Virus record (IMG/VR): IMGVR_UViG_3300010885_024627
Location: 1-34,484 of that record
Source: a virus
Length of the DNA: 34,484 bases
Strand: one strand, 5' to 3'
In this document: positions 2,681 through 34,294 of the stretch, piece after piece
Layout: each line of letters opens with the position of its first letter
How positions within the stretch are numbered: position 1 is the stretch's first letter
The notes under the pieces: generated by a model
The model's database searches: none
Seen by the model: the letters and a program-made list of their open reading frames with translations, nothing else
Told to the model about the DNA's origin: nothing
Made by a program: the position numbers and the translations under genes

Positions 2681-2690
2681 TATTAATGCA
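2681..2690 (-). promoter_or_regulatory. TGCATTAATA element (putative phage promoter)
   Basis: Exact copy on the minus strand, 12 nt before the ATG at 2668 and directly after the upstream stop codon and a run of T. The gene start has no Shine-Dalgarno. See the finding on this motif. Confidence 0.5.
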
Positions 2691-2696
2691 AAAAAA

Positions 2697-2954
2697 TCAG
2701 TGAGTTGGCCCGTTAATTGCTAAGGAAACGTCTTCGGCCCACTCTTGCCAAGTCTCAAACATTTCAGGTGATTGCAGGCCATAGGCTGCAAAAGACGGCG
2801 CGCTCACAATCTGGTTGGCAATCTCTTTCCATTCCAGCTCGTGGCCCTGCCCAATTGGTTCTTGGCCGTACCATTGGATGAAGTTGCCAACCCATTCCTC
2901 AAAACCGCAATAGGCGGTGCTAAACGGGAACGACTGGACAATCTTATTCGTCAT
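2697..2954 (-). CDS. hypothetical small protein
   Basis: 85 residues, acidic and rich in Trp and Phe (for example GFEEWVGNFIQWYGQEP and FETWQEWAEDVS). It has no signal peptide and no membrane segment. The start forms an ATGA overlap with the end of the nozzle-like gene, implying translational coupling. A small soluble protein here could be a tail-assembly factor, but no family is recognised. Confidence 0.75.
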   Translation of the reverse strand: MTNKIVQSFPFSTAYCGFEEWVGNFIQWYGQEPIGQGHELEWKEIANQIVSAPSFAAYGLQSPEMFETWQEWAEDVSLAINGPTH

Positions 2955-5116
2955 GGGCGCTCATCACCGTATTCGCAAGTAATGATGTTTCGACCCATCT
3001 CAAAGCTGCCGCCAAGCTCGTTTGACTCAAACTTCAACCGCATCAAACGATACTCGACACGCAAGTCAATCTTACCGGCGTCGGCATTAAAATAATAAGG
3101 GCCTGACACCTGCGTATTTATGTCGTCATCCGCAAACCTACGCCCCAAAACGCTCATGGCAATTGTTCCAGTTTGAACAAAGTTGGGTTCAAAACGGCGT
3201 AAATGCATGCGGCGGTTAACGCCCTGTGCGTTGTCCCCGCTTGGCGTACCGCCGACCCAGCTAATATCGCTGGTTGTGACGCGCGAATAAATGGCCGTAG
3301 AACCGTTTAAACCTACGCGATCTACGCCAAATTCATGCTGCCAAAGGTTATATCCGCCGGTAACAGCAAACACGTCCTGCCCTGTGGTAATTGCTGGGCT
3401 AAAATTTGTTGCGCAAGTTACCTTGGTAACACCGGGCGCTCCAATTGTTGTATTAACAATATTAACGCTGTTGGTAATTACATAGGTTGGAGCAGCTGGG
3501 TCCTGTAAAAACGCAACAGAATCTCCGGGGCTAAACGTTGACGTCTGGTTACCAGCTAAATAAAATTGGTTTGCCGCTGGTGCAGACTGCCCTGTCGGTG
3601 TGGCAATTGTTAATTGCGGTGTGTAGTAAATCGGCTCGTAGTTCCAATCACACCAAATAGGTGTTGGCAATAGTTCAGTTGTGTAGCCGCATGAGCGTTG
3701 AGCTCCGGGAGCTTGGCCAGCGTCGTACCAAATTTGATCTTTGGTGTTGTAAATGATGGCATCGGTGCATTCCGTTGCCTCACCACGGGGATAAAAAAAC
3801 CAAACCTCGTTGAAGCGCGGGATCTTAGTTGCCCATACTTTTTGACGTTGCGAAAAATTGATGTTATCAAACAGGTAGTTTACGTTCTTATCGTTAGGCA
3901 ATACCTTAACCGACCCGTTATACAGATAAAACCTATCTACGCCCATCCAAAAGTATATGCCATCCAGTTCAACAATACCCGCGGATGACATAACAGAGAT
4001 TTGGCTGGAAACAATATCGTAGTTCCAATACAGTGGCGCGTTGGCCGCAGTAAACGAAACACGAATTAAACTATCAGTCGACCAAAACAATCCGGAAGGT
4101 GCGTTTGTACCTCCGCGAACAGTTGCGCCCTTAACAATTTTTGAAGCAGAAACGTTAACTTGGTTAGCGTATGGTCCGTTCCAATCGTACAAAGATTGTT
4201 TATTATATTCGGCTGCACTTGTTTGAGTGCTTACGTTATTGTTGGCAATGTAACCGTATGAGCCGTACACAAAAATGAACGGGTACAACACACAAACACC
4301 ACCATCAACGGAGATAGGTTTGTACGTTGGGTTCGCACCCTGACTGTCTGACAAACCATAAAAATCCCAAGTATTTCCCGAAGCCGGTGTAATATTACCC
4401 ACCAGCACCTGCGACGGAACACCGTTGTCAATGTTAACTAAGTTGTAGCCCGGGTGCGCCAAGACCTGAAGCTGGCCACCAGAGGGGCTAAATGCCGCAT
4501 CAAATTGCCAATCTAAGCGGTAGGGTCCCGCAACAGGATCAGGGGTAAATACCGCGCCGTTGGCAATCCACGCCTGCGTTGGTGATGCGGGGATAGTGCC
4601 GCTGAATCCCAATCGCACATACGGCGCCACATAACTAACGCTTGTAGTTGTGTAAGTTGCGGGTGTACCGGATTGTGAAAAAATTACTTTTGTGCCGACG
4701 GGGAAATATTGAACCGCGCCAGAAACGCCAGAAGTACCTTGAATGTCAATGCTGCTAGTTAATGGGTTTACAACTTTTAATTCAACCTGCCCGGGTAAAA
4801 TATTAGCTTTATAAGGTCCGCTACCAGTGGCGTAATTAGTGTTGGTAGTAAAAATGTCCAGCTCATTAAAGTTGCCAGCAAAAATATAGTTAACGCCATT
4901 ATACGGTTGAATAACCATGCCGCGGTAAATGCCGACCAAGCTGGTAAATACTGATTTATAACCACCCATTTTACGGGCGCGCTCACGCTGAAAACGGCAC
5001 CACACGCCGTCTGTAAATTCTTCAGCTTCAAAAACAGTACCATCGCGCTTAATACCCGGCTTAACGTTGAGGGTATAAAGCGCGTTATATTGAGCTAAAT
5101 CAGCGTTATCAGCCAT
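2951..5116 (-). CDS. tail nozzle / packaged-DNA stabilisation-like protein
   Basis: 721 residues. The N-terminal segment (about residues 16-55: NVKPGIKRDGT, then a DGVWCRF block, then RKMGGYKSV) is characteristic of large podovirus proteins that extend the tail below the adaptor, comparable to P22 gp10-type stabilisation proteins and SU10-like nozzle proteins. The middle is beta-rich with repeated IYFWMGVDRFYLYNG-like and WFFYPRGE-like strands, consistent with a propeller. The C-terminus (about 620-721) carries the MHLRRFEPNF and EYRLMRLKFES strands seen in this class. It is coupled to neighbours through TAATG at the start and ATGA at the end. Its place just downstream of the adaptor and connector genes supports a tail-tube or nozzle role. 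The assignment rests on remembered family style and was not searched. Confidence 0.6.
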   Translation of the reverse strand: MADNADLAQYNALYTLNVKPGIKRDGTVFEAEEFTDGVWCRFQRERARKMGGYKSVFTSLVGIYRGMVIQPYNGVNYIFAGNFNELDIFTTNTNYATGSGPYKANILPGQVELKVVNPLTSSIDIQGTSGVSGAVQYFPVGTKVIFSQSGTPATYTTTSVSYVAPYVRLGFSGTIPASPTQAWIANGAVFTPDPVAGPYRLDWQFDAAFSPSGGQLQVLAHPGYNLVNIDNGVPSQVLVGNITPASGNTWDFYGLSDSQGANPTYKPISVDGGVCVLYPFIFVYGSYGYIANNNVSTQTSAAEYNKQSLYDWNGPYANQVNVSASKIVKGATVRGGTNAPSGLFWSTDSLIRVSFTAANAPLYWNYDIVSSQISVMSSAGIVELDGIYFWMGVDRFYLYNGSVKVLPNDKNVNYLFDNINFSQRQKVWATKIPRFNEVWFFYPRGEATECTDAIIYNTKDQIWYDAGQAPGAQRSCGYTTELLPTPIWCDWNYEPIYYTPQLTIATPTGQSAPAANQFYLAGNQTSTFSPGDSVAFLQDPAAPTYVITNSVNIVNTTIGAPGVTKVTCATNFSPAITTGQDVFAVTGGYNLWQHEFGVDRVGLNGSTAIYSRVTTSDISWVGGTPSGDNAQGVNRRMHLRRFEPNFVQTGTIAMSVLGRRFADDDINTQVSGPYYFNADAGKIDLRVEYRLMRLKFESNELGGSFEMGRNIITCEYGDERP

Positions 5117-6393
5117 TAGAATGTTCCGCCAGAAATCAATGTAGCGTTCAACGTTGCAGCAACCGTTACGACCGGTGCCGCGGGATTATTGTTATTGACG
5201 TCAATTAATTCAACACCGCCGGTAGTAATACCAAGTCGAGCAGTATCACGCAAGTACAAACCAGTTGTCACGTCGTTGCTGAATGAATACGACGGGACGC
5301 CTGACGTTCCGTTAGAAACGTAGTTAATACCCGTTGAAGCCGTAACCAATGAGTACAGGTTGGTGCCATCACTAAGGACAGTAAGCACCGAGCCGGCTGT
5401 TAAAACCAAGGGCGCTGCTGCGCTGCCCTGACACTTAAACGTGATGTTGTAGCTTATCTGGTTGGTGTTGTTAACAAGGATATACAGCTGCGTAATCGCA
5501 GGCAATGTCACCGCCAAGGTCTGTGTTCGTGTGCCGGATTGTGCAATATACGTTTGAATAATTGGCGCGTAAGACGTCAAATTCAAAGTGTTGCCAATAA
5601 TCGTATCAACGTCGTATGATGCCGAGTTAAACGTTACCGCAGTTGGGATAGACCATCCAACGGTAATAAAACCATTGCTAGTCGGGTCAAACATAATAAA
5701 CCCGGAGTCGCTTGGGTTCGTGGCAATACTCAACGCGTTGTTAATTTTTTGCCCAGTACCAGCGACTGTACTGAAAGTCAATGTCCCAGTGCTGCTGTTT
5801 CTAAACGCAATGTACCAGCCGGGGTTTAAATTTTGTACGTTTGGCAGTGGAATAGTTGCGGATCCACCAGTCCAGTTATACGTTGTCCCTGAGTTATTTT
5901 GAGTTATTGTTGGTACAACAGCTGTATCAATAACGTTTTGGCCGGTTGCAAGTTTGCCGTTATATGTTGTCAAACCCAAACCAGCTAATGAAGCGGCATC
6001 GGCTACAGATGTGCCAACACCAAACGCCACGTTATTCCACGTGCCGGCCTGCGAAGTGTTGTCAGTTAAATAGAAGTATCTTGCAGAACCAACAGCCAGC
6101 GTTACAGAAGCGCCGCCGGTGTTGTTGGTAATGTTGATTGGGAACGCGCCCAAGTTACGGAACAAAATGTCTGTGCCCAGCGCGCCTTGTGACGCGTCAG
6201 GCAGTGCAATAGCAAGTCCGCCTGCGCTTGCAACGCAGTCGATAATACGGGCAGCTACTGTCTGTGTTGAGTTAACAGTAGTGGGCCAATACAACGTAAC
6301 ATTAGAGCTAAAATTTAGCGCCTCATACGATACGTCTGTGGGGGTGACAACGGTGCCGGTAAACGGCGAGGTGTATGTAGGTGTTGTAGCCAT
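5116..6393 (-). CDS. tail fibre/spike-like structural protein
   Basis: 425 residues, rich in Thr, Ser, Asn, Gly and Val with short alternating strands throughout, almost no Lys and few charged residues. The N-terminus (TYTSPFTGTVVTPTDVSY) resembles a virion-attachment segment; the rest looks like a beta-helical or beta-sandwich shaft ending in DTARLGITTGGVELIDVNNN, a tail-fibre-like pattern. It sits between the adaptor and nozzle-like genes and its stop overlaps the nozzle ATG (TAATG). A tail fibre or tail-associated decoration is the likeliest role. No catalytic motif is seen. Confidence 0.6.
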   Translation of the reverse strand: MATTPTYTSPFTGTVVTPTDVSYEALNFSSNVTLYWPTTVNSTQTVAARIIDCVASAGGLAIALPDASQGALGTDILFRNLGAFPINITNNTGGASVTLAVGSARYFYLTDNTSQAGTWNNVAFGVGTSVADAASLAGLGLTTYNGKLATGQNVIDTAVVPTITQNNSGTTYNWTGGSATIPLPNVQNLNPGWYIAFRNSSTGTLTFSTVAGTGQKINNALSIATNPSDSGFIMFDPTSNGFITVGWSIPTAVTFNSASYDVDTIIGNTLNLTSYAPIIQTYIAQSGTRTQTLAVTLPAITQLYILVNNTNQISYNITFKCQGSAAAPLVLTAGSVLTVLSDGTNLYSLVTASTGINYVSNGTSGVPSYSFSNDVTTGLYLRDTARLGITTGGVELIDVNNNNPAAPVVTVAATLNATLISGGTF

Positions 6394-6396
6394 TTA

Positions 6397-7011
6397 TTAT
6401 GGTTCCTGTACTGATGTGTTACGGTCAACGCGGCGCAGATCGTCTTCTTTCTTAAGCGCAGCAATTGCGTCGGTGTAGTATGCTTTCCATACCGGCAGCT
6501 TATCGAGCGCCTTTAAATAGCCCTGAGCTTGCAGCAAGGACCCAAACAACATGGCCTGCGGTGCCACAGAGGTCCACAGGTTTTGTTGATTGACGCTATC
6601 CAATGGTTGAATTTCAGCGTAATAGATAATTTCCACTGGGTACGATGCATCCGGTTTTGGAGCAAACGCCCAGTTAGAAAAATCATATTCCGCATAATAC
6701 TTAGGCATTCCGTTTGTGGATTCCGCTTGATATTGCGCCAGATAATCTTGGCTGCGCAACAACATGGGCTGGCCATTTACCTTCATGCTGACGGTTTTAC
6801 GCCAGCGCGCGGGCTTGGTCAATGTAACTTGGTTTTGTGCCAGATTTGTTTCAACAACGATGAGCTGGATGTAAGACCGCAATTCAGCAGCGATTGAAGA
6901 CTCAGCCAGCGCAATCATGCCGGGAATAGCCGCAACGAAATCTGCGTCGTCGCGTTCCATATAGTCAATAATATTCGCTACGAGCGAATCATAGGTCATT
7001 ATGGCGCTCAT
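6397..7011 (-). CDS. head-tail adaptor, SU10-type
   Basis: 204 residues, mostly helical. The N-terminus (MTYDSLVANIIDYMERDDADFVAAIPGMIALAES) and the following R-x-W/R-K segment with QDYLAQYQ match the general pattern of the SU10-like podovirus adaptor family, which forms a ring under the portal. The C-terminal helical part (PQAMLFGSLLQAQGYLK, then WKAYYTDAIAALKKED) is typical of the same family. The start overlaps the upstream connector gene as ATGA. MSAIM offers two possible ATGs; the first is used because it gives the coupling. Confidence 0.7.
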   Translation of the reverse strand: MSAIMTYDSLVANIIDYMERDDADFVAAIPGMIALAESSIAAELRSYIQLIVVETNLAQNQVTLTKPARWRKTVSMKVNGQPMLLRSQDYLAQYQAESTNGMPKYYAEYDFSNWAFAPKPDASYPVEIIYYAEIQPLDSVNQQNLWTSVAPQAMLFGSLLQAQGYLKALDKLPVWKAYYTDAIAALKKEDDLRRVDRNTSVQEP

Positions 7012-8081: not shown

Positions 8082-8082
8082 A

Positions 8083-8250: not shown

Positions 8251-8251
8251 G

Positions 8252-8839: not shown

Positions 8840-8887
8840 GGTATTTCCTTAAGGTAAATGTTAAAAAGGGTGATCAATCCCTATATT

Positions 8888-8897
8888 TATTAATGCA
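8888..8897 (-). promoter_or_regulatory. TGCATTAATA element (putative phage promoter)
   Basis: Exact copy on the minus strand, 2 nt after the T-run of a terminator hairpin and 48 nt before the ATG at 8839, which has an SD. Confidence 0.55.
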
Positions 8898-8898
8898 T

Positions 8899-8920
8899 AA
8901 AAAAGGCCATTTAGGCCCTT
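8899..8920 (-). terminator. Rho-independent terminator after the lysis operon
   Basis: Minus-strand stem AAGGGCC / GGCCTTT (7 bp with one G-U pair), loop TAAAT, followed by a T-run. The stop codon of the 8911-9150 gene lies inside the loop. Confidence 0.75.
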
Positions 8921-9150: not shown

Positions 9151-9152
9151 GA

Positions 9153-13766: not shown

Positions 13767-14201
13767 TTATTCCTTTAAATATTGCAAAACAACTTGTGGT
13801 TCCACAAATCGTTCTTTTTCGTGTTCCGTGGCTTCCCACCAAATAAACTGATCTTTGACTAAATACGAACGATCCTTCAACAGGTTAACGTTTTCAGGGT
13901 GGCCGAATACCAATGGATCAGACGGGCCCCACAACACGATACCTTTTTTCCCTAAGTCCCAGCCAAAATGCTGGAGGAAACTATCGCACGATATCCATAT
14001 TCGGCATTCGCGAATGACGGATGCCAACTCGTCCATTGACAGATTTTTTCTAAAATCGTCAACAAGCTGATCTTCGCCGTCAACCCCAACCTGAACAATT
14101 GGCTCGTCAATTAACGCAATTAACTCTTTCCAATACGGGTAATTTTTTGGGTTTTCTTTACCCGTTCTTAACTTTTGAGAATAAGGAGATATAACTATCA
14201 T
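13767..14201 (-). CDS. GT9-like glycosyltransferase C-terminal half
   Basis: 144 residues resembling only the C-terminal Rossmann half of a GT-B heptosyltransferase-like (GT9) enzyme. The sequence ISPYSQKLRTGKENPKNYPY is followed by a WKELIAL helix, then PIVQVGVDGEDQ, SMDELASVIRECRIWISCDS, FLQHFGWDLGKKGIVLWGPS and DPLVFGHPENVNLL, the order of the sugar-nucleotide-binding domain in GT9 proteins. GT9 enzymes are normally over 300 residues. The matching N-terminal half appears fused to the end of the upstream GT2 protein, and the two frames overlap as ATGA, so the halves are probably made together. The substrate is unknown. Confidence 0.65.
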   Translation of the reverse strand: MIVISPYSQKLRTGKENPKNYPYWKELIALIDEPIVQVGVDGEDQLVDDFRKNLSMDELASVIRECRIWISCDSFLQHFGWDLGKKGIVLWGPSDPLVFGHPENVNLLKDRSYLVKDQFIWWEATEHEKERFVEPQVVLQYLKE

Positions 14202-15172
14202 AGGTACAACTTTTTAAAAGCGTTCTCCAAACTCTCTGTCCAATTCCATTGACCCATTTTTTTATAGATGCTCCATTGGTCAATATGCCCAAAATAGCTA
14301 ACTGCATCTTTAATCCCCATTCCGGGAACAATGTCTGGGTAGCAAGAAAACACAATAGGGTCTTTAATCAACGGAAGAACACGTTTAAATACAATATGAT
14401 CCCCACGGCCACAATTAAGAACCACAATAGTTTTGTCGCGGCACCGGATGAAATTATTAAATATTTCCTCATCGTGTCTATACATGTCCATGTTAGTTTC
14501 ACTACGAATGCCACCCTGCGGGTTCTTCATGTGCCAAGTCACCGCGTTTGGAACCGCTAGAATCTGGTAGCCCTTTTGGTGCAGCCCCCAGGTAAACAAC
14601 GTTTCTTCTCGGTGCGCCACGCGCGACAGCCCCAAGTTGTAGTCATATACGCCCGCACGATACAAAAAAGAACAATGCAAATGCTCAACAACCTTAACCC
14701 CGCTAACCATATTCCATTGACAGTTGGGCTCTTTACTTATGTCGTCAATCCTGCCAGTCACCTTTGAAGTATCAGGGAAATTGGGCGGGGTCAAAATGGC
14801 CCCGCCGACCGCACCTAATTTATTGTTCCGTTTTGTATATGAATGCAAAATTTCGAGCACATTCGGCTCTGGGATTGCATCATCGTCAACACGCCATACC
14901 CAATCAAATCCAGCGGTGTTTGCCTGCTGATGAATAAAGTGCTGCCCCCTTTTTTCTGCAATCCGCCACTCCCACGCAATCTTCTTGATATCCAGCATTT
15001 GAAAAAAGTATTGATAAATCATCTCTTTTCGCATGTCTTGGAACTCGTCGTTGTCATCAAAGATGATCAACTTGTCCGGAACCTTGGTCTGGTTAATGAT
15101 GGCGTTTAACACCAACGGCAACGTCGTATGGTAACGTCCTCGGGTTGCCACCGAGCACAAAACCTTACTCAT
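14198..15172 (-). CDS. GT2-like glycosyltransferase fused to a GT9-like N-terminal domain
   Basis: 324 residues. Residues 1 to about 235 resemble a family 2 glycosyltransferase: ATRGRYHTTLPLVLNAIINQ at the N-terminus, DDN near the first acidic motif, VWRVDDDAIPEPNVL carrying the DxD metal/nucleotide motif, and HREETLFTWGLHQKGY near the acceptor site. From about 246 the sequence changes to KTIVVLNCGRGDHIVFKRVL, then DPIVFSCYPDIV, the look of the first Rossmann domain of a GT9 enzyme. The next gene continues with the second domain. The start overlaps the upstream GT/methyltransferase gene by 8 bp. Possible roles are glycan modification of the virion or of the host envelope. Confidence 0.7.
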   Translation of the reverse strand: MSKVLCSVATRGRYHTTLPLVLNAIINQTKVPDKLIIFDDNDEFQDMRKEMIYQYFFQMLDIKKIAWEWRIAEKRGQHFIHQQANTAGFDWVWRVDDDAIPEPNVLEILHSYTKRNNKLGAVGGAILTPPNFPDTSKVTGRIDDISKEPNCQWNMVSGVKVVEHLHCSFLYRAGVYDYNLGLSRVAHREETLFTWGLHQKGYQILAVPNAVTWHMKNPQGGIRSETNMDMYRHDEEIFNNFIRCRDKTIVVLNCGRGDHIVFKRVLPLIKDPIVFSCYPDIVPGMGIKDAVSYFGHIDQWSIYKKMGQWNWTESLENAFKKLYL

Positions 15173-16394
15173 TGTCGCACCAACAGATCATCAAGTTGGC
15201 GGGGTTGTCACCAGACTCGTCGTTCTTTGTGTCCGTAATGTTGCCGTTGAAGTCAATGTAGGCAAAATTAAACCCTGGGAAATCTTTCTCTGTTAAACCG
15301 TGTAACCTGTGATGCTCGCCCCAAAACCCTTTAGGCTCGTTGTACGGTACCGTGATCATTAAGCGCTTGCAGTGTTTCTTTAGCTTTTCAACAACCTCCA
15401 AACCATTATCAAGGTGTTCAATTACCTCAAAAGCAATAATGGTGTTGTACCGGCCCAGCTCAAACGTATTAATGTCCGCGTGGTAAAACGATGCGTTGTC
15501 AGACCACTGTTGGTCCTTCGCAATCCCAATAATCTGTTCGTCGTAATCCAACCCCATGTACGTCGTGCCCTCTGGCAAAAACTGGTAGCCGTAGCCGGTG
15601 GAGCACCCAATCTCCAACACCTGCTCGCCAACCAGATTCTTTGCGGCCCATTCGTAGCGCTGTGTCTCGCGCGGGAACACTGGGTCACCTTTTAGAAACA
15701 CCGCGCGCTCGTAGTTGTTTGACAACAAGAAACGATAGTGGTCCATGTTGTGTTTTCTGGCCAACCTTAGCTCATTTTCAGAAAAGAAATGCTTCCAGCC
15801 TTTTACCAACGTTTCATCATGTACCGTACCCTCGGCCACATGGTAGATTGGGAAGTCACCTAAATGGCCCACGTCAACGAGTTTAAACCCCTCTTGCAGG
15901 GCCCGAAAACAAAAATCAATATCCTCGCAGCCACCGACCTCAAACTGCTCGTCCAGCAGCCCAATTTGGTTAAGCACTCTTTTTTGAATCATTACGCAGA
16001 AGAATACGCCAAATTTGGACTGTATAATGTCTGAGTAGTTTGTCAGCACCGCCGAAATGTCACCGGTGTCCAAACGCTCCAACCACGTATTTTTTTTCTG
16101 GTCCAGTAAAATTGTGTCGTTATTTAACAACACAATCTTGCCGGTTGACGTGGCACTAATACCTTTGTTAACAGCTTTAGAAAAACCCAGTGGCTCATCG
16201 TACCAAGGCCACACTAAATTAATACCAGTTGAACTTAAATAATTAAGGTACGCGCTTGTGTTATCCGTGCAACCGTTGGCCACAACCACCAACTCAACAT
16301 CTTTCATGTCGGTGTATTTGATGATAGAATCAATACAAGGTTTTAAATACTTCTCGCAGTTGTTATACGTTGGTATTACAATACTATATTTCAA
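15165..16394 (-). CDS. GT2 glycosyltransferase - SAM methyltransferase fusion
   Basis: 409 residues. The GT2 domain (1 to about 225) shows YSIVIPTYNNCEKYLKPCID, VVANGCTDNT, GKIVLLNNDTILL (DxD-like NNDT) and GGCEDIDFCFRALQEGF. The class I methyltransferase domain (about 240-409) shows QVLEIGCSTGYGYQFLP (SAM-binding Gly loop), YMGLDYDEQIIG, AFEVIEHLDNG and RLMITVPYNEP with GEHHRLHG. The likely activity is sugar transfer plus sugar methylation. The start is TTG, chosen because AGGAG lies 6 nt upstream and the homology begins at once. A TGTATGGTATAATG extended -10 and an AACATTAATA element lie upstream, so this gene probably begins the cassette transcript. Confidence 0.8.
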   Translation of the reverse strand: MKYSIVIPTYNNCEKYLKPCIDSIIKYTDMKDVELVVVANGCTDNTSAYLNYLSSTGINLVWPWYDEPLGFSKAVNKGISATSTGKIVLLNNDTILLDQKKNTWLERLDTGDISAVLTNYSDIIQSKFGVFFCVMIQKRVLNQIGLLDEQFEVGGCEDIDFCFRALQEGFKLVDVGHLGDFPIYHVAEGTVHDETLVKGWKHFFSENELRLARKHNMDHYRFLLSNNYERAVFLKGDPVFPRETQRYEWAAKNLVGEQVLEIGCSTGYGYQFLPEGTTYMGLDYDEQIIGIAKDQQWSDNASFYHADINTFELGRYNTIIAFEVIEHLDNGLEVVEKLKKHCKRLMITVPYNEPKGFWGEHHRLHGLTEKDFPGFNFAYIDFNGNITDTKNDESGDNPANLMICWCDNE

Positions 16395-16409
16395 GGTGCT
16401 CTCCTAAAG

Positions 16410-16444
16410 TTAAGAGCTCTCATTATACCATACATATTAATGTT
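16410..16444 (-). promoter_or_regulatory. promoter region: CATTAATA element plus extended -10
   Basis: On the minus strand AACATTAATA (16444-16435, two mismatches to the phage element) is followed by TGGTATAAT, a match to the extended -10 TGnTATAAT of the host housekeeping sigma factor. No convincing -35 is seen. The leader to the TTG start at 16394 has AGGAG as SD, and GCTCT / AGAGC can pair over part of it. Confidence 0.55.
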
Positions 16445-16712
16445 ATGCGTCCTCTGCACCTTCGAACTCAGGTTTTTGTTTGATGATAGAGTATAAAACA
16501 GCACGGTCTGCACCAGCAATGTATTCATCACCGGCGATCTGTACCTTACCAGCGGATAGCGGTTGTTTGCCAGCTTCACGGGCTTCCTTGGAGGCATAGC
16601 CGTAAAAAGTTACTTCTGTGCCTTTGCCTTTGAAATCTTCTTGGACCGCGCCAATGTTCCAATAGGTCGCTGCTATTCCGTAGTCTGTATCAATTGATTT
16701 GATTAAAGCCAT
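16443..16712 (-). CDS. small conserved-style phage protein
   Basis: 89 residues from the ATG at 16712, selected because of the SD AGAGGA 8 nt upstream; an upstream GTG at 16751 lacks one. It begins MALIKSIDTDYGIAATYWNI and continues with EVTFYGYASKEAREAGKQPL, a pattern I recognise in small proteins next to phage fibre genes, with no proven role. It lies between the beta-helix adhesin and the glycosyltransferase cassette. Confidence 0.75.
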   Translation of the reverse strand: MALIKSIDTDYGIAATYWNIGAVQEDFKGKGTEVTFYGYASKEAREAGKQPLSAGKVQIAGDEYIAGADRAVLYSIIKQKPEFEGAEDA

Positions 16713-16728
16713 GTTTATATTTCCTCTG

Positions 16729-18285
16729 TTAAAAAAACTCGTTGAAACCACCTAGTGCGGGGTATTGGTTAAACACAATACCAGAATTACCGCTTACGTT
16801 TGTGTTGTTTCCAAAATAGTTGTTATTATAAGTGTTTGTCACGCCCGTGTTTGCAACCCAAGCATTTGAGGGAGAGCCTGTACAATCTTGTAAAGCAGTT
16901 CCAACAAAATAGCCGCACCCTCCGCCAATTTTATTCAGTGTAAATGGATTTCCCGCAATAGAACTTTTAATAATAATTCTAGTAGTTATACTGTAATAAC
17001 TACCGGAATACCTTCTTAAATTGCCCATATATATATTTGATGCAGCATCAAACTGCACAATGTTATTAGCTGAAAAATTATAATATCCGCTAATATCAAA
17101 GTTATAAATTGTTATATTATTACCCAGAAATGCAAATGTACTTGCCACAGAACCCGAAAAGTTTAGTATAACAGTTCCTATTTTAATCCCGGAAGAAAAA
17201 GTTTGGCTTGTAGAATAAGTAATACTGTTAATAGAAAAACTTAAAATTGCTGTAGAAAAATCTAATGTTGTGTTTGTGCTAGAACCGTTAAAAGAATTAT
17301 TATCCGCACTAAGTCTGAGACTATACGTAAGAGAACTTGGTACTGCATTAATTACTATGTTTTTAGTGTTTGAGTTATTATAATTAAAATATTGCCCCGT
17401 GTTCTGTAAATCTATACGGTTCGCATTATTGTTAAAAAAACCACTTTGTATAGTAACTCCAGTGAGGCTTGATATTGAAGCAGCTAAAGCAACCGAACCT
17501 TGACTACTTCCATTTCCAATATAAAGTGGCACAGAAGTATAATAGGTATATATAAATCTAGTTGGTGTTACCGTGCCAGTACCAGTGCCGGGCCCTGTTG
17601 CCGTAAAAAGTGTATTTGGTTTGTTTGAAGTTGCGCCATACGAAGTAAAGTTGGTAGTGCCCGCACTTGTGATTGTGTATTTAGTTCCCGCCACCATTGC
17701 TGTTGCAGCCACGGACAATCCCGGGGCCATAGTAATTGACCCCGTAAATGAAGAGACACTATTTAGGTATAAATCACCGTAAACGGTTATTCCCGATGTG
17801 GTTATCGGTGCGGCAGTGTGAACAAAATTTCCAAAAACAGAAGTTCCAAGTGCGTATGGCCCCGTTGAAGTGGTGTTAATATTAAAATTAAGCGCGTTAG
17901 TTTCTGATACGGCCCCAGTAGTTATTGTTTTTGTAGCTGTAGTTGACCCAAAGGTGACAATATTGTCCCCAGTTAATGACGCGCCACTTCTGAAAATTGT
18001 TGCGGTTGTGCTTCCCGTAAAAATCGTGCCCGTACTTGTAAGTGTAATAGTATTTCCAGCAGAATTAAAAGTTAGCCCTCCGCTATAACCCGTCATGTTC
18101 ACACTAAGTACTGTGACATTTGAATCTACCGTGCAATTGCCCAACTGCGAGTTTGCTGAAAAAAAGGCTGTATCTGCTGTGCCCGGAACAGATGCACCTC
18201 CGGAAGTCGCGGCTGAACTAGCGGACCAGTTTGCCGTACTACTCCAATTACCAATAGCGTTTCTAACCCAGTATCTACTTGCCAT
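16729..18285 (-). CDS. beta-helix-like tail spike / adhesin
   Basis: 518 residues. The N-terminus RYWVRNAIGNWSSTANWSAS, then GGASVPGTADTAFF, is the 'RYWVGG-GxWs-t-nWs-tSGG..vPt..D.vfF' start of many phage and bacterial surface proteins that run into a parallel beta-helix. The remainder is Ser/Thr/Asn/Gly-rich with repeated short strands and clear N-x-I-x-x pseudorepeats. The C-terminus (GGCGYFVGTALQDC; NNYFGNNTNVSGNSG; QYPALGGFNEFF) may be the receptor-binding tip. There is no SD; the ATG lies 3 nt after the TAA of the long YSG fibre, which implies coupling to it. No hydrolase motif is evident. Confidence 0.7.
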   Translation of the reverse strand: MASRYWVRNAIGNWSSTANWSASSAATSGGASVPGTADTAFFSANSQLGNCTVDSNVTVLSVNMTGYSGGLTFNSAGNTITLTSTGTIFTGSTTATIFRSGASLTGDNIVTFGSTTATKTITTGAVSETNALNFNINTTSTGPYALGTSVFGNFVHTAAPITTSGITVYGDLYLNSVSSFTGSITMAPGLSVAATAMVAGTKYTITSAGTTNFTSYGATSNKPNTLFTATGPGTGTGTVTPTRFIYTYYTSVPLYIGNGSSQGSVALAASISSLTGVTIQSGFFNNNANRIDLQNTGQYFNYNNSNTKNIVINAVPSSLTYSLRLSADNNSFNGSSTNTTLDFSTAILSFSINSITYSTSQTFSSGIKIGTVILNFSGSVASTFAFLGNNITIYNFDISGYYNFSANNIVQFDAASNIYMGNLRRYSGSYYSITTRIIIKSSIAGNPFTLNKIGGGCGYFVGTALQDCTGSPSNAWVANTGVTNTYNNNYFGNNTNVSGNSGIVFNQYPALGGFNEFF

Positions 18286-23562: not shown

Positions 23563-23572
23563 TATTAATGCA
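23563..23572 (-). promoter_or_regulatory. TGCATTAATA element (putative phage promoter)
   Basis: Exact minus-strand copy, 26 nt downstream of a strong terminator and 99 nt upstream of an ATG with SD. Terminator and element together mark an operon boundary. Confidence 0.6.
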
Positions 23573-23598
23573 ACATTTTTGACTAAAACGCCCGCAAT

Positions 23599-27678: not shown

Positions 27679-27870
27679 TTAAATATCCTCTTCGTCCTCG
27701 CTAAGGATTTGATTTATAATGTCCAATGATTCTTGGACACCAGCTTTTTGCCCTACTAACCTCTGGTAAGAGGCATAATCGTGGACATTAACGCCGGACG
27801 AAATAGCTAACGTTAAATCTTGATCAGCACTTTTCAAGCGCTTAATTAATTCAGATACAATATCTTTCAT
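27679..27870 (-). CDS. small helical hypothetical protein
   Basis: 63 residues, all-helical and amphipathic (KDIVSELIKRLKSADQDLTL, YQRLVGQKAGVQESLDIINQ), ending in an acidic tail. It has no SD; TGTATTAATA ends 5 nt before the ATG, so translation may start on a leaderless transcript. It opens the operon carrying the co-chaperonin, scaffold and capsid genes. Similar tiny proteins near portal genes are often unannotated; function unknown. Confidence 0.7.
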   Translation of the reverse strand: MKDIVSELIKRLKSADQDLTLAISSGVNVHDYASYQRLVGQKAGVQESLDIINQILSEDEEDI

Positions 27871-27875: not shown

Positions 27876-27885
27876 TATTAATACA
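27876..27885 (-). promoter_or_regulatory. TGTATTAATA element (putative phage promoter)
   Basis: One mismatch to TGCATTAATA. It begins at the foot of a terminator-like hairpin and ends 5 nt before the ATG at 27870, which lacks an SD. Confidence 0.5.
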
Positions 27886-27908
27886 AAAGGCGACATAAAA
27901 CCGCCCTT
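27885..27908 (-). terminator. candidate weak terminator
   Basis: Minus-strand AAGGGCG / CGCCTTT stem (7 bp with one G-U), loop GTTTTATGT, with a short T-run. It follows the stop of the 76-residue gene. Confidence 0.5.
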
Positions 27909-27914
27909 AATGTA

Positions 27915-28145: not shown

Positions 28146-30994
28146 TATTGTTGTCCTTCGGGAGGTTGTGGTTCAGGTTGTTGATAGTTTTGTTCCAGCG
28201 TTTGAGCGTGTTGCTGGTCGTTTTGTTGCAGCTGTTGCATGTGTTGTTGGTTTGCCATGTCTGCCTGAGCTTGTTGCTGGGCTTGTTGGTTTACCATATC
28301 AGCTTGTTGCTGGAAGTTTTGCTGTTCAATAGCTAAACCATGCTGTCTAATGTCTGCACTCGCGGCATCAATTGCCTCGATCGCTGACATGTTTTGCTCG
28401 TGTTCTAACTGAGCTTGTTGCTGGTCCATCTGAGCACCGGCTTGAATATAAGCCACTCGTTCGCGCGCGGAGTTATTAATATTTGCCATTGCAATATCGG
28501 TCGCATTGCGCTGGTTGTCAATATTTGTCTGCGTTTGATACTTAGTCTGTAGTTCTGCCACCTTTTGCTGCAGTTCAGCCACTTTGAGTTGGTAATCCTG
28601 TTGGGCTTGTTGCAACTCAGTTTGCATCTTGGTTTGGAACTCTTGTGCCTTACGTTGAGTTTCTGCCATTTGCGTCTTCATCAACACCTGCGCAGTCGGG
28701 TCGGCGTTCATAGCTGATTGCTGTTGTGCTTGTTGCATTTGCTGCACCTTCTGCACCAACACCATAATTCGCTGCATGTATGGTTGTAAGATCTTCTGGG
28801 ATTCGTGGTCAACAATCTTTGAGCCTAAAGCCAAAGCCTGCTGTGATTCCCAATCTAATGTCTTCTCTTCGTGTAAATCAAGCACGTCTTTTCCACCAGA
28901 CGCTTTCGCCACAATGTTACGCATAGACTGGAGGTAGTACAGCATCAAGTGTTGCTTGATGTGCTCTAACGCCATCGGCGTAAACGTTGGGCCAATGACC
29001 GGGCTGCCACCATACACTGGATTCTCTGCGTACTCTAAATGAACATCTAGGTGTGCAATATGGTCTTGGTCTGGATAAGCAGCTGCGTGTCGACCCATCG
29101 TCATTGAAACGTTCTCTAACGCTGGGTTGGATTCTTTTGCACCTTGTGGGTTTGGCAAAATCTCATCGGCCTCGGGGATCTTTAGCTGTTGAACAATACG
29201 GCTGTACACAGCACGCAAGTCAAACATTCCGGGAGGCGCCGCGGTTGCCATTTGCAACAAGGCTTGGTTTTGTGCAAGACGTTGTGTCTCAGAAAATATG
29301 TTGGGGTCCGATACCGGACGCACATCGCTGTTGTATGCAAAGTCACGAACCTCAATCTCTTCACCAGACTGATTGTCCATCTCGCTCAAGTACCAGTTAT
29401 TGATACGGGAGATAATCTTTAATGACTTAGCCTGGCTGCGATGCAAGCGCGCGTGGATGCTTGAGAATACCTTAGCACCCTGCTCAATCAACGCCTGGGT
29501 TGTTCCCACAGGCATGTTGTTGTTTGCTTCGCCAATTTTTTCTTCGGCTGTGGTAACTACACCCTTAGCCGCGTCAGTCAACCAGCCCAGCAAATTAAAC
29601 AATACGCTGGAAGGCTGGTTAAACGGCAGCGGCATAGCCAGCTTGCGGACGTCGTCTACACCTGGTGCACCCTCAATCTCAACCACCTGAGTCGGCTCAA
29701 TACGGTCCGACTGGCCCCCGATGCGCCCGCCTTTGAGCTTGAGCATCGTTTGACTATTACTAATGTGAGCTGCGTCAAGCAGCGCGCGAAGAGCACCAGT
29801 AAGTGCAGCGCTAAGACCGCCAATAAGGTGAGGTAAGCCAATAGCATATGCGCCGCGCCATGGGATGAACTTAAACTCAACATACCAATCTAGCTTTTCA
29901 AATTTGTCGTCGCCATCAGCCCAGTTACGGTACAAGCTCAATACTTTGCTTGACGACTCATCAATTGTTAAAATGTAAGGTGCACGACGACCTTCAGTTG
30001 TATCGTCATCATCCAAACGCAAGAAGCACGTAATCTCATAAACACGACGCAAACCATCAATGTTTTTACCAGAGCTTTCTTTGCCTTCAATTTTGTTGTT
30101 GGCTTTTTCAGATTGCGTTTGGTCATCAAGCGGCGTGTCTGACGTGTAAGACGCATCGATCTCGCGGTAGATACCCGCGTCAATACGTTGGAGGAATACA
30201 TCCTCTGTAATGTCTTGTACTTCAGTCGCGCGCTGTGATGTGTAGAAGTTTGTGGATGCGTACGGCAACAATATGTTGTCGATCGGGATCCACTCACACA
30301 TTGGCCTGCGTTGCTCTGAATCCCAGCGCCATTTCAAGAACTGCGAACCACCTAATGGCAGTTGAGTTAGCAGTTGCTCCATCTCGTCGCGGTACTCAGG
30401 AATCTGTTCCGACAGCTGCCAGTTTAAGAACGTAACCTTACGTTCAGCAACTTCCAACTTCAAACGATCAATAGCACCCTTGATGTTTGTCTTAGCAATG
30501 CCTTCAGGTGGCAATAATTCTTTGGCCGAGCTTGCAGCAAAGTCTACACAAGCCTCTGCCATAACAGGGTGAACAACTTTAGAAGCACCGTCGAAAGTAG
30601 CACCACCAGGAGCGTCCTTACCCAAACCAGTGCGGCGTAAGCCCTCCTCATATTGCTTATCGCGCTGTTTTCTAGCTTCTTTATCTTCATCAATAAAGTC
30701 CAAATAATCTTGGGCCAATTGATCCAAATAGCTTTCATCAAACACTTCCGCAAGGTTAGCATAAAACTCAGGGCTTTCTTTTGGGCCCTTAGTTTGCTCA
30801 AGGTTAACAACTACTGAACCGTCTTCCAGTTCAATAATCTCACCCTCTGCCTCATCTTCATCTAAACCCAAATAGTCTTCAAGCTCAGCAACTTCTTGCT
30901 CCTGAAGCTGACCCTCTGCAATCTCTTGATCTGTTTTAGAATCTAAAGACGGCAAGCTGCCACCCATTTGAATCGGTAATTTTGGATTTGCCAT
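28145..30994 (-). CDS. portal protein
   Basis: 949 residues. An acidic N-terminal 110 residues (ELEDYLGLDEDEAEGEIIEL) is followed by a portal core: AGLLRR-like EGLRRTGLGKDAPGGATFDG, VVHPVMAEACVDFAASSAKE, GGSQFLKWRWDSEQRRPMCE, LIGGLSAALTGALRALLDAA and the crown region KGVVTTAEEKIGEANNNMPV, SSIHARLHRSQAKSLKIISR. From about 700 the protein is a Gln-rich coiled coil (MQQAQQQSAMNADPTAQVLM, EQNMSAIEAIDAASADIRQH) that resembles the long barrel of P22-like portals. Length and order fit the SU10-type/podovirus portal. The start overlaps the upstream stop and the stop overlaps the next start (both TAATG). Confidence 0.85.
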   Translation of the reverse strand: MANPKLPIQMGGSLPSLDSKTDQEIAEGQLQEQEVAELEDYLGLDEDEAEGEIIELEDGSVVVNLEQTKGPKESPEFYANLAEVFDESYLDQLAQDYLDFIDEDKEARKQRDKQYEEGLRRTGLGKDAPGGATFDGASKVVHPVMAEACVDFAASSAKELLPPEGIAKTNIKGAIDRLKLEVAERKVTFLNWQLSEQIPEYRDEMEQLLTQLPLGGSQFLKWRWDSEQRRPMCEWIPIDNILLPYASTNFYTSQRATEVQDITEDVFLQRIDAGIYREIDASYTSDTPLDDQTQSEKANNKIEGKESSGKNIDGLRRVYEITCFLRLDDDDTTEGRRAPYILTIDESSSKVLSLYRNWADGDDKFEKLDWYVEFKFIPWRGAYAIGLPHLIGGLSAALTGALRALLDAAHISNSQTMLKLKGGRIGGQSDRIEPTQVVEIEGAPGVDDVRKLAMPLPFNQPSSVLFNLLGWLTDAAKGVVTTAEEKIGEANNNMPVGTTQALIEQGAKVFSSIHARLHRSQAKSLKIISRINNWYLSEMDNQSGEEIEVRDFAYNSDVRPVSDPNIFSETQRLAQNQALLQMATAAPPGMFDLRAVYSRIVQQLKIPEADEILPNPQGAKESNPALENVSMTMGRHAAAYPDQDHIAHLDVHLEYAENPVYGGSPVIGPTFTPMALEHIKQHLMLYYLQSMRNIVAKASGGKDVLDLHEEKTLDWESQQALALGSKIVDHESQKILQPYMQRIMVLVQKVQQMQQAQQQSAMNADPTAQVLMKTQMAETQRKAQEFQTKMQTELQQAQQDYQLKVAELQQKVAELQTKYQTQTNIDNQRNATDIAMANINNSARERVAYIQAGAQMDQQQAQLEHEQNMSAIEAIDAASADIRQHGLAIEQQNFQQQADMVNQQAQQQAQADMANQQHMQQLQQNDQQHAQTLEQNYQQPEPQPPEGQQ

Positions 30995-31542
30995 TATTTA
31001 ACTTTTCTGTTTGCGAGCATTTGATCTTGCATTTGATGGATTTGCTTCATCATTTCGTCTTCGCCGGTATTTAATTCTGTTGGCTTTAACGCAGCCCATC
31101 CAGCTTGCACTGGCAACGGAGCCAAACCAATCGCAGCATCGAGCGTACTTTCACGCGCGCCGCCAATGTTATTATTTTTTAACTGTTCTGCCACGTCATA
31201 CGCAGGTATGCCAAACGTTAACCCATGACCCAACAAAGAACCTAAACGTGAAGAAAACTTTTCAAACGAACTAGGGGGCAATTGTTTTGCCCGCATTTCT
31301 TGTAAATTAATATTGATCGGATCATAACGACGCGTTAAATCAATCGGAGGTTTTACCTCCTTACCCCCCGCAAAGTGCTGTATCAACGGATGATCGTGTG
31401 GCAGTTCGCTTTGATGTACCTTGTGGCCGTTGATCATTAGCTCCACCTTCATCTGTTCTGGTGACACCGAATGACCGCCCGCATAACCCGGGAGGCCGGC
31501 TTGTTCCATCAACAACTCGTGGGGTGATTTGATTAGGTTCAT
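30994..31542 (-). CDS. hypothetical protein upstream of portal
   Basis: 182 residues. N-terminus SPHELLMEQAGLPGYAGGHS and LPHDHPLIQHFAGGKEVKPP, then a helical part (SSFEKFSSRLGSLLGHGLTF), a mildly hydrophobic STLDAAIGLAPLPVQAGWAA segment, and a Met/Gln-rich helix at the end. The FAGG/YAGG motifs recall GG motifs in other small proteins of this genome (8252-8839). It has no SD; TGCATTAATA ends 10 nt before the ATG. A minor virion protein is possible. Family not recognised. Confidence 0.7.
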   Translation of the reverse strand: MNLIKSPHELLMEQAGLPGYAGGHSVSPEQMKVELMINGHKVHQSELPHDHPLIQHFAGGKEVKPPIDLTRRYDPININLQEMRAKQLPPSSFEKFSSRLGSLLGHGLTFGIPAYDVAEQLKNNNIGGARESTLDAAIGLAPLPVQAGWAALKPTELNTGEDEMMKQIHQMQDQMLANRKVK

Positions 31543-31552
31543 ATTCTAATTC

Positions 31553-31562
31553 TATTAATGCA
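31553..31562 (-). promoter_or_regulatory. TGCATTAATA element (putative phage promoter)
   Basis: Exact minus-strand copy, between a hairpin that covers the terminase stop and the ATG at 31542, 10 nt away. That gene has no SD. Confidence 0.55.
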
Positions 31563-31567
31563 CATCG

Positions 31568-31586
31568 GTAGGGTGTTTCGCCCTAC
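31568..31586 (-). other. hairpin over the terminase stop codon
   Basis: Minus-strand GTAGGG / CCCTAC stem of 6 bp with loop CGAAACA. The terminase TAG is inside the 5' arm. No T-run follows, so termination is uncertain; transcript processing or attenuation is possible. Confidence 0.5.
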
Positions 31587-33028
31587 TGTGCGTATGGATT
31601 GGAGAACTTGCGCGCCAACTGGTCGTCAATGTATGAGTAATCTCTTGCAGGCAACGGATCGAGTTGTAACCATCCTGAATCACGTAACACGCGCAACGCT
31701 TGTGTCAGTGAGTCCACGTAGTCATCGTGCCCTTTGGCTTCAGGGAACGAACACACCTGCCGTATGAATCGTTTGGCCCACGGTGCAAACTCACCTTTTT
31801 GTTCTGGATCCTCCGGTATGTACACCCGGCCCTTAGCAACCAGCGGGGCCACGATGTTTAACCGCTGCACCTTATCGGCGCGTCCTGGGTTGTATCCACG
31901 CACCGGAACGCCGGCGCCTTGTAACTCTTGAATCAGGCTGATACCTGCAGACTTGTCTTCCATGAGCAACAAGTCAGCCTTACGGCCTTTTGCAAACGTG
32001 TTATCTGCGCCGTACACAACTTCCTTGAAGTCCGATATAACTTTGCGGCGTAACTCTGGATACGCCAAGTGCGCGTCCCATGCGTCTAACATGATGACCG
32101 ACGTGTGGCCATCCTCTTGCTCAAACACGCCCCACACCGTGCAGGCTGTTGGGTCGTTGACCGTCTTCTCGCTGGTAGCCGGATCGTATGACGCAATCAC
32201 ATACTCAAGGGTTGGCGTCGACTTGTTGGCTGGCCACATGCGGAACTGCTTGCGTTTAATAATGCCGGCCTCTTCCGGATCCAATATCTCGCCGTAAATT
32301 TCCTGACGGCCCAGGTTGGTGCCCTCGTAGCTTTCCAACTGTTTGAAAAACGTATCAGACAAGTTGGCGCGGTTGTCAAACGAGCTGGCGTTGGCCACGT
32401 ACACGTCGCCGCCCACCTTACCCTCGTTTAAGTCTACAATCAACTCGAGCGGCTTCGGCGTTGTCGTGATAATCTGCTGCACCCGCCCAATGCGTGGGTC
32501 CATCAAACGCAACGTAAACTGCGCCTGGTCATACGCGTCGTCGATGTACTCAAACGCACACAGCTCGTCAAACCAGGCCCCATGGTATTGCTTACCACGA
32601 TAGCGTTCTGGCTCAGAACCAGGGATCCCTTGGATCAGTGAGCCATTGATCAGTGTAATCTCAAGCAACGACTTATTGTAATCTTTGATGATGGATCGTG
32701 GCAAAATGTTAAGTAGCCCAGAGTCACCCTCGAAACACGTCGCGCGAATGTCGTTTGTTGTTGGCGCTGTAACCAACCAGCGCGTCTTGTCAAAAGTCCA
32801 CGCCCGCTCGCCAATCCAGTTAGACGCCGTCCATGTCTTACCCGCACCGCGGCCGGCCAGCATTAAGAACGTATCAAACTCGCCGTCCTCCGGTTCTTTT
32901 TGGTGCGGGAGCGCGGATAGCTTGTACTTCACCAGCCAAAGGGTGGCATCGAGCTGCGCCTTTGGCCATTGTTTGTTTTGTTCTGCGAACTTCTTTAACA
33001 GAAGCTCTTGTTTTGCCGTTAACGACAT
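31583..33028 (-). CDS. terminase large subunit
   Basis: 481 residues. The ATPase domain has Walker A AGRGAGKT (residues 58-65), Walker B AWFDE with Asp154-Glu155 and a coupling TTTPK at 188-192. The C-terminal nuclease (from about 270) has the acidic residues expected in an RNase H-like fold: SYDPAT with Asp282, MEDKS with Glu357-Asp358, and GHDDYVDSLTQAL with Asp435, Asp436 and Asp439. It is the motor that cuts and packages DNA through the portal. SD AGAAGGA 8 nt upstream. The ATG lies 10 bp inside the preceding intein-like gene. The gene itself is uninterrupted, including the Walker A site where inteins often insert. Confidence 0.92.
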   Translation of the reverse strand: MSLTAKQELLLKKFAEQNKQWPKAQLDATLWLVKYKLSALPHQKEPEDGEFDTFLMLAGRGAGKTWTASNWIGERAWTFDKTRWLVTAPTTNDIRATCFEGDSGLLNILPRSIIKDYNKSLLEITLINGSLIQGIPGSEPERYRGKQYHGAWFDELCAFEYIDDAYDQAQFTLRLMDPRIGRVQQIITTTPKPLELIVDLNEGKVGGDVYVANASSFDNRANLSDTFFKQLESYEGTNLGRQEIYGEILDPEEAGIIKRKQFRMWPANKSTPTLEYVIASYDPATSEKTVNDPTACTVWGVFEQEDGHTSVIMLDAWDAHLAYPELRRKVISDFKEVVYGADNTFAKGRKADLLLMEDKSAGISLIQELQGAGVPVRGYNPGRADKVQRLNIVAPLVAKGRVYIPEDPEQKGEFAPWAKRFIRQVCSFPEAKGHDDYVDSLTQALRVLRDSGWLQLDPLPARDYSYIDDQLARKFSNPYAQ

Positions 33029-34008
33029 GTGATAAATCCTTCTCCCACTAAAAACGAACCATCAGGCCCGTCAGTTTCAATGTGTACACATTGTTGCGTG
33101 GGTAACTCTTCAATTTTAGTAATGTACCGTCGTGCTTGGTGCACCTTAACTTTCTTCGGCACCTGAACACTACACAGTTGGTTACAGTTTCTGAAACCTA
33201 ATGTGTAATGCTTCCAGTTTTCGTAAAAGTTTAGTGTAGTCTTGCTACCTAATGACTCTACTAACCCCTGGATTTTCCTAATCTCCGGCCAGTGTGAGCC
33301 AGAAACTCTAAAAATATCTTTTGTTTTCTTGTATTGTCGTATTTTTGCGTTTACAATACCGCTTAACAGCTCAATTCTTTGCTCTTCACTACCCAGCAGG
33401 TAGTTGTTTGGTATCTCTTTGGGTATGAACGGCGCCAGCTGTGACTCAATCGTAGGGAACACACTGAAGATCGTGGCTCCATCCTTGCGTTTTTTTGGTT
33501 TTATGATCTCATACCCATGGCTGCGGAACTTTTCTAACACCTCATCGGCGTTTAGCTTGTGCGCCGAGAACACATTGGGCTTCAATCGGTTCCAATACCA
33601 GTACCCAAACACAAACGGCGGCACCGGCAGGTCCTGGTGTGGCAGCTTGAGCGCTCCGCACGTAGGGATTGAGAACGTACGCGCGTTGTTCTTGTGCCTC
33701 AACGACTTATCCAACAGCCCGGACAACGGTTCCAAAATCAACGGGCGCATAAACTGGCGCTTGCCCTTGTACTCTGCCAGCCGTTTCCTGTACTTAGGCG
33801 TTTCCAACAAAAAATGCATGGACGCGTTACCGCTGACAGTCAGCAAGTCACTGAGGTGCACCTCATAGCATTTGGATTGAAAGTGCTGGATTAACGTAAC
33901 CTTACGCAGGTCTCCATTCCTATCAAAAATAAAATCGCCTTCAACCAGTTTGTCAGCGCGTTTCCAATAATCAAGCGTCAGTATTTTTTCGTTTGCTGTA
34001 ATAGCCAT
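33019..34008 (-). CDS. free-standing intein-like protein (Hint plus degenerate LAGLIDADG)
   Basis: 329 residues. The N-terminal block (AITANEKILTLDYWKRADKL, then EGDFIFDRNGDLRKVTLIQH) follows intein block A, and YEVHLSDLLTVSGNASMHFL with ETPKYRKR follows block B. About 165-280 is endonuclease-like (SHGYEIIKPKKRKDGATIFS, NNYLLGSEEQRIELLSGIVN) but lacks a clear LAGLIDADG acidic pair. The C-terminus (HIETDGPDGSFLVGEGFITC) follows blocks F/G. The splice residues are absent: Ala2 replaces the first Cys, and the final His-Asn-Cys is replaced by Cys-Arg-stop. It precedes an intact terminase and overlaps it by 10 bp. No SD is obvious. Confidence 0.75.
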   Translation of the reverse strand: MAITANEKILTLDYWKRADKLVEGDFIFDRNGDLRKVTLIQHFQSKCYEVHLSDLLTVSGNASMHFLLETPKYRKRLAEYKGKRQFMRPLILEPLSGLLDKSLRHKNNARTFSIPTCGALKLPHQDLPVPPFVFGYWYWNRLKPNVFSAHKLNADEVLEKFRSHGYEIIKPKKRKDGATIFSVFPTIESQLAPFIPKEIPNNYLLGSEEQRIELLSGIVNAKIRQYKKTKDIFRVSGSHWPEIRKIQGLVESLGSKTTLNFYENWKHYTLGFRNCNQLCSVQVPKKVKVHQARRYITKIEELPTQQCVHIETDGPDGSFLVGEGFITCR

Positions 34009-34294
34009 TGTTTTCTGTTAAGACCCATAAATCTAGGAAATGCGCTAACGGCATTCTAATCTTATATTGAACTGACAAAGGTAACTTTTGGATATCTACC
34101 TTTTGGTACATCTTTAGCCGGCACCTGAAGTACACCAAGGTTTCATACTCAAAAATTTCTGCGGGCACGTCTACCATGTGGTGCTCCAGGTCTTCGACCA
34201 CAACCAACACGCGAAACCCGCTAATCAAACCCCTAGAGGTTTTTAAAACTTCTTTTATTTGGTATTGATATCTCACGCCCATATTAATGCACAT
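33971..34294 (-). CDS. hypothetical protein at the right edge
   Basis: 107 residues from ATG 34294, or 103 from ATG 34282. The sequence includes IKEVLKTSRGLISGFRVLVV and VDVPAEIFEYETLVYFRCRL, a mixed alpha/beta look, and ends in a basic tail. The end overlaps the intein-like gene start by 38 bp. A TGCATTAATA element lies across the two candidate starts, so the true start is uncertain; it could also be further downstream. A small terminase subunit would often lie here, but no helix-turn-helix is visible. Confidence 0.55.
   Translation of the reverse strand: MCINMGVRYQYQIKEVLKTSRGLISGFRVLVVVEDLEHHMVDVPAEIFEYETLVYFRCRLKMYQKVDIQKLPLSVQYKIRMPLAHFLDLWVLTENNGYYSKRKNTDA
34282..34291 (-). promoter_or_regulatory. 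TGCATTAATA element (putative phage promoter)
   Basis: Exact minus-strand copy near the right end. It overlaps the candidate starts of the last gene, so either the gene starts later or the element has another role here. Confidence 0.45.

Follow-up and report, generated by a model that had tools for sequence, protein, structure and literature searches.

A candidate promoter element, its probable phage sigma factor and predicted leaderless mRNAs in a group of uncultured phages

Introduction

The promoters of gp36, the sigma factor of phage phiEco32, carry the element tAATGTAtA and start transcription 6-8 bp downstream of it, and those of gp47 of phage 7-11, a sigma factor that keeps region 4 in its own chain, follow the pattern GTAAtg-(16)-aCTA (PMC8948821). 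Sigma functions may also be divided between proteins: in late transcription of phage T4, gp55 is a small sigma covering sigma2 and gp33 a separate beta-flap protein, an arrangement called a split sigma (PMC2988020), and in the SigO-RsoA pair of Bacillus subtilis the sigma2 and sigma4 functions lie on separate proteins (PMC10028694). Described here is a repeated element, TGCATTAATA, found in 34,484 nt of the virus record IMGVR_UViG_3300010885_024627 (the window hereafter), every gene of which lies on the minus strand, together with a phage sigma factor of 191 amino acids (aa) that probably reads it.

The system is a phage-encoded sigma factor with its promoters and, by the tests made, falls outside the gp36 family. 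Like gp36, the sigma factor lacks region 4 and goes with a short core element, the start being predicted here, from a peak of ATG codons, 6 nt downstream; unlike in phiEco32, the element is a different one, and 131 of the 235 non-redundant copies that make up the set for promoter statistics add a -35 box. Neither BLASTP (E 3.0) nor profile comparison (probability 0.1) detects similarity to gp36, and phiEco32 is therefore a parallel in logic only. A preliminary description of the window had drawn this parallel; what stands of it is a phage sigma with a short element of its own, whereas the single-element promoter and a gp36-like protein do not. With the promoters of phage 7-11 those with the box share a bipartite structure, here too probably read by a phage sigma, and a 16-nt spacer, although the sigma factor here, unlike gp47, has no region 4. 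Phage 7-11 also counsels caution with computed elements, its computed promoters (PMC4331800) having later been superseded by a different experimental consensus (PMC8948821).

What began as a motif in a single contig is now the probable promoter system of a large group of uncultured phages, comprising hundreds of contigs and having no close named relative. The closest named phages by terminase (42-52%) are the Caulobacter phages RW, GB2A, RLK, KcrB and MW202545; RW and MW202545 gave no match to a sigma profile, and the element was not above chance in the stretches of them that were searched (half of MW202545). The only lead to a host comes from three terminase relatives that fall in one beta-proteobacterial bin of metagenome-assembled genomes.

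The element and its forms

The window contains five exact copies of TGCATTAATA, each of them on the coding (minus) strand, where 0.09 are expected and at most one was found in 100 shuffles. A single variant copy, TGTATTAATA at 27885, has surroundings like those of the exact copies, and at the two-mismatch level matches are as frequent as chance predicts (53 against 47.6 expected). The preliminary description had listed seven copies at gene boundaries, of which these six are retained. The seventh, AACATTAATA at 16444, was dropped as a chance match because flanking features, the upstream GGGCG among them, are missing and a host-type extended -10 sequence, TGGTATAAT, adjoins it. Host sigma70-like promoters are at chance level in the window between 14485 and 34376, with 25 found as compared to 28.1 in shuffles.

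Three forms of the element are distinguished among relatives, namely TGCATTAATA (A form), TGCATTAGTA (G form), which takes the place of TGCATTAATA throughout other relatives, and CGTATTAGTA (CGT form), which belongs to a third clade. In 20 records the A form has 49 copies and the G form 88, any other single substitution reaching about a dozen at most, and element forms foreign to a record are rare, with 6 copies among 25 records. An early guess that distant relatives are without the element was wrong, the G form being present there. Counts between and within genes, a check that the preliminary description had proposed, place 152 of 162 type-matched exact copies from 25 records between open reading frames (ORFs) or at their edges, as against 71% of bases lying deep inside ORFs, by gene calls that are crude.

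Another repeat, GTTTAAAC, was considered as the promoter element of those relatives that are rich in it and was rejected because these phages use TGCATTAGTA. It occurs 25-44 times per record (G003, G009, G010 and G014), every 150-350 bp, in the early stretch of small genes that runs from sigma to terminase, and 13 of 73 clustered copies stand directly before an ATG.

A sigma factor beyond the window

The preliminary description had guessed that a sigma factor would be encoded outside the window, and one is indeed found on an overlapping contig. One contig, G001 (59,260 bp), matches window positions 1-34376 at 100% identity and adds most of an opposite-strand arm, in which five more copies of TGCATTAATA lie, all on the coding strand of that arm. 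A second, G024 (51,963 bp), agrees with G001 at 99.96% identity over 45.5 kb and fully (100%) with window positions 1-20644, and extends past the end of G001 into the gene for the 191-aa sigma factor (G024:45776-46351). By this overlap the sigma factor thus belongs to the same phage; judged from the layout of relatives, its gene would lie some 6 kb past the high end of the window.

The protein consists of regions 1.2, 2 and 3, and the chain stops after region 3. Region 2 (Pfam PF04542) is above cut-off in all three sigmas scanned and in 13 of 20 records, and region 3 (PF04539) is likewise above cut-off, at E 5.7e-10 to 5.4e-7; a Sigma70 region 2 protein of ~190 aa is present in the contigs of 15 of 20 relatives. 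No match to region 4 (PF04545 or PF08281) in the sigma chain is above cut-off, the weak ones falling inside region 3. Searched against PDB sequences, the protein matches SigA/RpoD (E about 2e-26), and its AlphaFold model, with a mean pLDDT of 78.6, matches chains of sigmaS and SigA.

Directly downstream of the sigma gene, and overlapping it, lies a gene for an 88-aa protein (G024:45513-45779), which is present in 9 of 10 records with variable adjacency and is possibly an anti-sigma or a cofactor.

Predicted start site and leaderless mRNAs

Counting from the T of the element, 81% of the 235 copies have A at position 16, and in 76% a T stands just before it. In 54 copies the A of an ATG falls exactly at this predicted +1, as compared to 2-3 at neighbouring positions. 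Numbered from the ATG peak, the element has TGC at -15 to -13, ATTA[A/G]T at -12 to -7 and A at -6, with +1 six nucleotides further on. The TGn at -15 to -13 is part of the defining pattern of element types A and B, with CGT in type C; a TATAAT-like hexamer with A-11 was not found, ATTA[A/G]T occupying -12 to -7 instead.

Of the 54 ATGs at +1, 50 open a frame of 40 codons or more, and none of these 50 has a Shine-Dalgarno-like site, whereas 26 of the 33 ATGs at +76 to +120 have a Shine-Dalgarno. The division that the preliminary description had noted in the window, whereby copies near an ATG go without a Shine-Dalgarno and distant copies with one, therefore holds and is sharpened over the larger set. 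Its proposal that the copies behave as promoters is supported as well, and those near an ATG now predict leaderless mRNAs to the nucleotide. Predicted leaderless starts belong to 10 gene families, among them two late ones with 17 and 16 members and, between them, all three element forms. Messages with a start codon at +1 would be translated without a leader, and viral mRNAs predicted in this way make leaderless translation testable in uncultured hosts.

Co-variation of element and sigma factor

At 80 sigma loci of relatives, the form of the element agrees with the clade of the sigma factor wherever the locus has an element. The TGCATTAATA form goes with two separate sigma clades (local support 1.0 and 0.975), the second of which is nested among G-form sigmas. 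Two residues track single promoter bases. Residue 98 aligns with T429 of sigma70, which serves the non-template strand as fulcrum between -11 and -7 (PMC4496690), and follows base -8: each of the 19 sigmas in the A-form clades has S or A there, and the remaining 61 have T, 54 of them in the G-form portion of the tree (some few with no copy in the locus) and 7 of the CGT form. Residue 124 aligns with H455, which together with E458 contacts -14 of the TGn element (PMC2613000), and follows bases -15 and -13, with N in 73 sigmas and K in those of the CGT clade, 7 in number. Residue 52 (L/F), also considered as determinant of -8, was rejected because F occurs in one TGCATTAATA subclade.

The phage group in this way offers a natural mutational series for the reading of DNA by sigma factors. 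Since element and sigma share ancestry, the co-variation amounts to few independent events, and the small CGT clade differs at many further sigma columns; that residues 98 and 124 track the bases read by the sigma is therefore a strong suggestion rather than proof.

The -35 box and two promoter classes

GGGCG occupies exactly -36 to -32, 16 nt upstream of the element, in 120 of the 235 copies, and occurs at any other offset at most once. Its presence is all-or-none: 120 copies have no mismatch to it, 11 have one, 7 have two and 97 have three or more, the first two groups making up the 131 box promoters. All six real copies in the window have the box, as AGGCG (once), GGGCG (three times) or GGGCC (twice), so that the preliminary statement that no -35 is shared was wrong. 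With a shared -35 element, the late promoters are bipartite rather than single-element.

The two classes also differ downstream. Box promoters have a fixed initiator (T-1 in 94%, A+1 in 97%, G+3 in 82%), in place of which box-less promoters show a stronger TATA continuation at -5/-4. The box is present on 82 of 101 late-arm copies as compared to 21 of 77 early-arm copies, counts that include related records, and the distribution suggests that the GGGCG class would act late.

In two relatives (G003 and G009, B type), early-arm copies of the element overlap TTGACA-N17-TAGTAT, so that one site may serve both as the phage element and as a host sigma70-like promoter.

Proposed mechanism and alternatives

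The element is very probably a promoter core read by the host RNA polymerase with the short phage sigma, in two classes and with leaderless transcripts where the ATG is at +1. The element, its spacing, the classes, the sigma gene and the co-variation can be read off the sequences themselves; that this sigma recognizes the element is what they point to. Host polymerase carrying the 191-aa sigma would read TGCATTA[A/G]TA as an extended -10 and would start transcription at the A six nucleotides downstream. Where the start codon coincides with +1, as at ATG27870 and GTG34276 of the window, the mRNA would have no leader, and where it is 40-100 nt away the leader would carry a Shine-Dalgarno. Promoters of the first class would combine the position-locked GGGCG at -36 to -32 with the fixed initiator and serve mostly the late arm, and those of the second, box-less, mostly the early arm.

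Several points weigh against this account. ATTAAT is poor as a sigma70 -10 hexamer, +1 is placed by the ATG peak and the initiator rather than by transcripts, and leaderless translation presumes that the host is capable of it. A few sigma loci are without any exact copy of the element, and shared ancestry leaves only two TGCATTAATA sigma clades, with weak deeper nodes between them, and one CGTATTAGTA clade from which to argue.

As for the box, the main rival, and a real possibility, is that an activator from phage or host, with no relation to sigma region 4, binds GGGCG much as the MotA boxes of T4 are bound. The box sits on a subset of promoters, chiefly of the late arm, as an activator site would, and the phage sigma has no region 4, the part that usually reads the -35; however, the fixed 16-nt spacing at -35 suits a sigma4-type contact at least equally, and all 10 records examined have a conserved sigma4-like protein. 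This early protein of 103 aa (G024:36834-37145) matches Pfam Sigma70_r4_2 (PF08281) weakly and below cut-off (E 0.0057; 4 of 9 members), and in its model a helical domain at the C-terminus is predicted with confidence. Foldseek matches of the model in the PDB are headed mostly by sigma region 4 domains (best probability 0.93-0.97, rmsd ~2 A, E 0.6-1), and a PDB sequence search with a profile of the protein returned nothing meaningful. Where its gene has an element directly upstream, that element is of the box-less kind.

That the 103-aa protein reads GGGCG is speculative. Tentatively, the 191-aa sigma alone would serve middle, box-less promoters, and the 103-aa subunit would then join it, read GGGCG and bring on the late genes, a split sigma with a temporal switch. 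Under such a scheme the 103-aa protein might perhaps often be made from a box-less, sometimes leaderless, promoter. The existence of box-less promoters suggests that the sigma can act without a second protein. If the partner is real, the arrangement resembles T4 gp55/gp33 in pairing a small sigma with a separate protein, but in T4 gp33 does not resemble a sigma and the late promoters are without a -35, as opposed to the -35 box and the sigma4-resembling candidate here. It would likewise resemble SigO-RsoA in splitting sigma2 and sigma4 functions between two proteins, although that pair is bacterial, and here the sigma is an RpoD-like fragment of regions 1.2-3 and box-less promoters exist. If true, a split sigma would underlie two promoter classes in one phage.

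That the element is instead a host sigma promoter of the extended -10 type, with the phage sigma acting elsewhere, is improbable. TGn with an AT-rich hexamer does resemble an extended -10, and sigma70 remains able to use TGn promoters when region 4.2 is missing (PMC2613000), but the hexamer ATTA[A/G]T is unlike TATAAT, and the form of the element shifts genome-wide along with the clade of the phage sigma and its DNA-contact residues.

It is likewise improbable that GGGCG is only the 5' arm of upstream terminators. It can pair with the spacer at 31562, 27885 and 8897, and stems of at least 8 pairs number 20, as compared to about 5 with shuffled spacers; yet the box is locked at exactly -36 and all-or-none, and its complement occurs in the spacer of 34 of 131 copies with the box as against 21 of 104 without. 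A terminator stem was thus rejected as the general reason for the box, hairpins around it being little above those of shuffled spacers, and the preliminary observation that copies follow a hairpin or terminator does not extend to a general rule. A single-subunit (T7-type) phage RNA polymerase would go with a short conserved promoter and a fixed +1 but can hardly be responsible, as 20 records gave no PF00940 match (in a search whose control was empty as well) and a sigma factor with matching variation is present instead.

Features of the window

Features of the six copies are collected in Table 1. The preliminary description had a gene start near 34282; orthologues put the true start at GTG 34276, exactly at the predicted +1.

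Table 1. Element copies, upstream boxes and associated genes in the window
Feature	Position	Strand	Remarks
-35 box AGGCG (1 mismatch to GGGCG)	34308..34312	-	
-10-type element TGCATTAATA	34282..34291	-	predicted +1 = G34276 of GTG34276, predicted leaderless; orthologues have ATG at that place
Predicted leaderless gene, GTG start, VRYQYQIKEVLK...	33971..34276	-	upstream of terminase genes; 17 leaderless family members
-35 box GGGCG	31579..31583	-	
-10-type element TGCATTAATA	31553..31562	-	predicted +1 A31547; 5-nt leader to ATG31542
182-aa gene behind 31562 element	30994..31542	-	5 orthologues have ATG exactly at +1
-35 box GGGCG	27902..27906	-	
-10-type element TGTATTAATA	27876..27885	-	predicted +1 = A of ATG27870, predicted leaderless
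Predicted leaderless 63-aa gene MKDIVSE...	27679..27870	-	16 non-redundant leaderless family members, all three element types
-35 box GGGCG	23589..23593	-	
-10-type element TGCATTAATA	23563..23572	-	predicted +1 A23557; 93-nt leader with Shine-Dalgarno to ATG23464
-35 box GGGCC (1 mismatch to GGGCG)	8914..8918	-	
-10-type element TGCATTAATA	8888..8897	-	predicted +1 A8882; 43-nt leader, Shine-Dalgarno AAGGA, to ATG8839
-35 box GGGCC (1 mismatch to GGGCG)	2707..2711	-	
-10-type element TGCATTAATA	2681..2690	-	predicted +1 A2675; 7-nt leader to ATG2668

Other observations

A glycosyltransferase cassette at 14198-18285 of the window lies in or next to its stretch of lowest GC (0.39 at 16-18 kb); it has a host-type extended -10 of its own, the TGGTATAAT mentioned above (16430-16422), and is perhaps an acquired moron. 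Window positions 34377-34484 form an A/T-rich tail, with long runs of A and of T, which is absent from the otherwise identical G001 and looks like assembly junk; the end of G024 is similar sequence.

On the early strand of G024, beyond the window (~51,240-51,570), lies an intergenic array of some seven TGGCATGNTNCTTGCT copies in alternation with the inverted TGGCACGGATCTTGC. TGGCATGNTNCTTGCT has the form GG-N10-GC, with spacing as in sigma54 promoters, and the array could represent iterons or promoters; other clades have short repeats of their own, such as ACCCTGACAAG.

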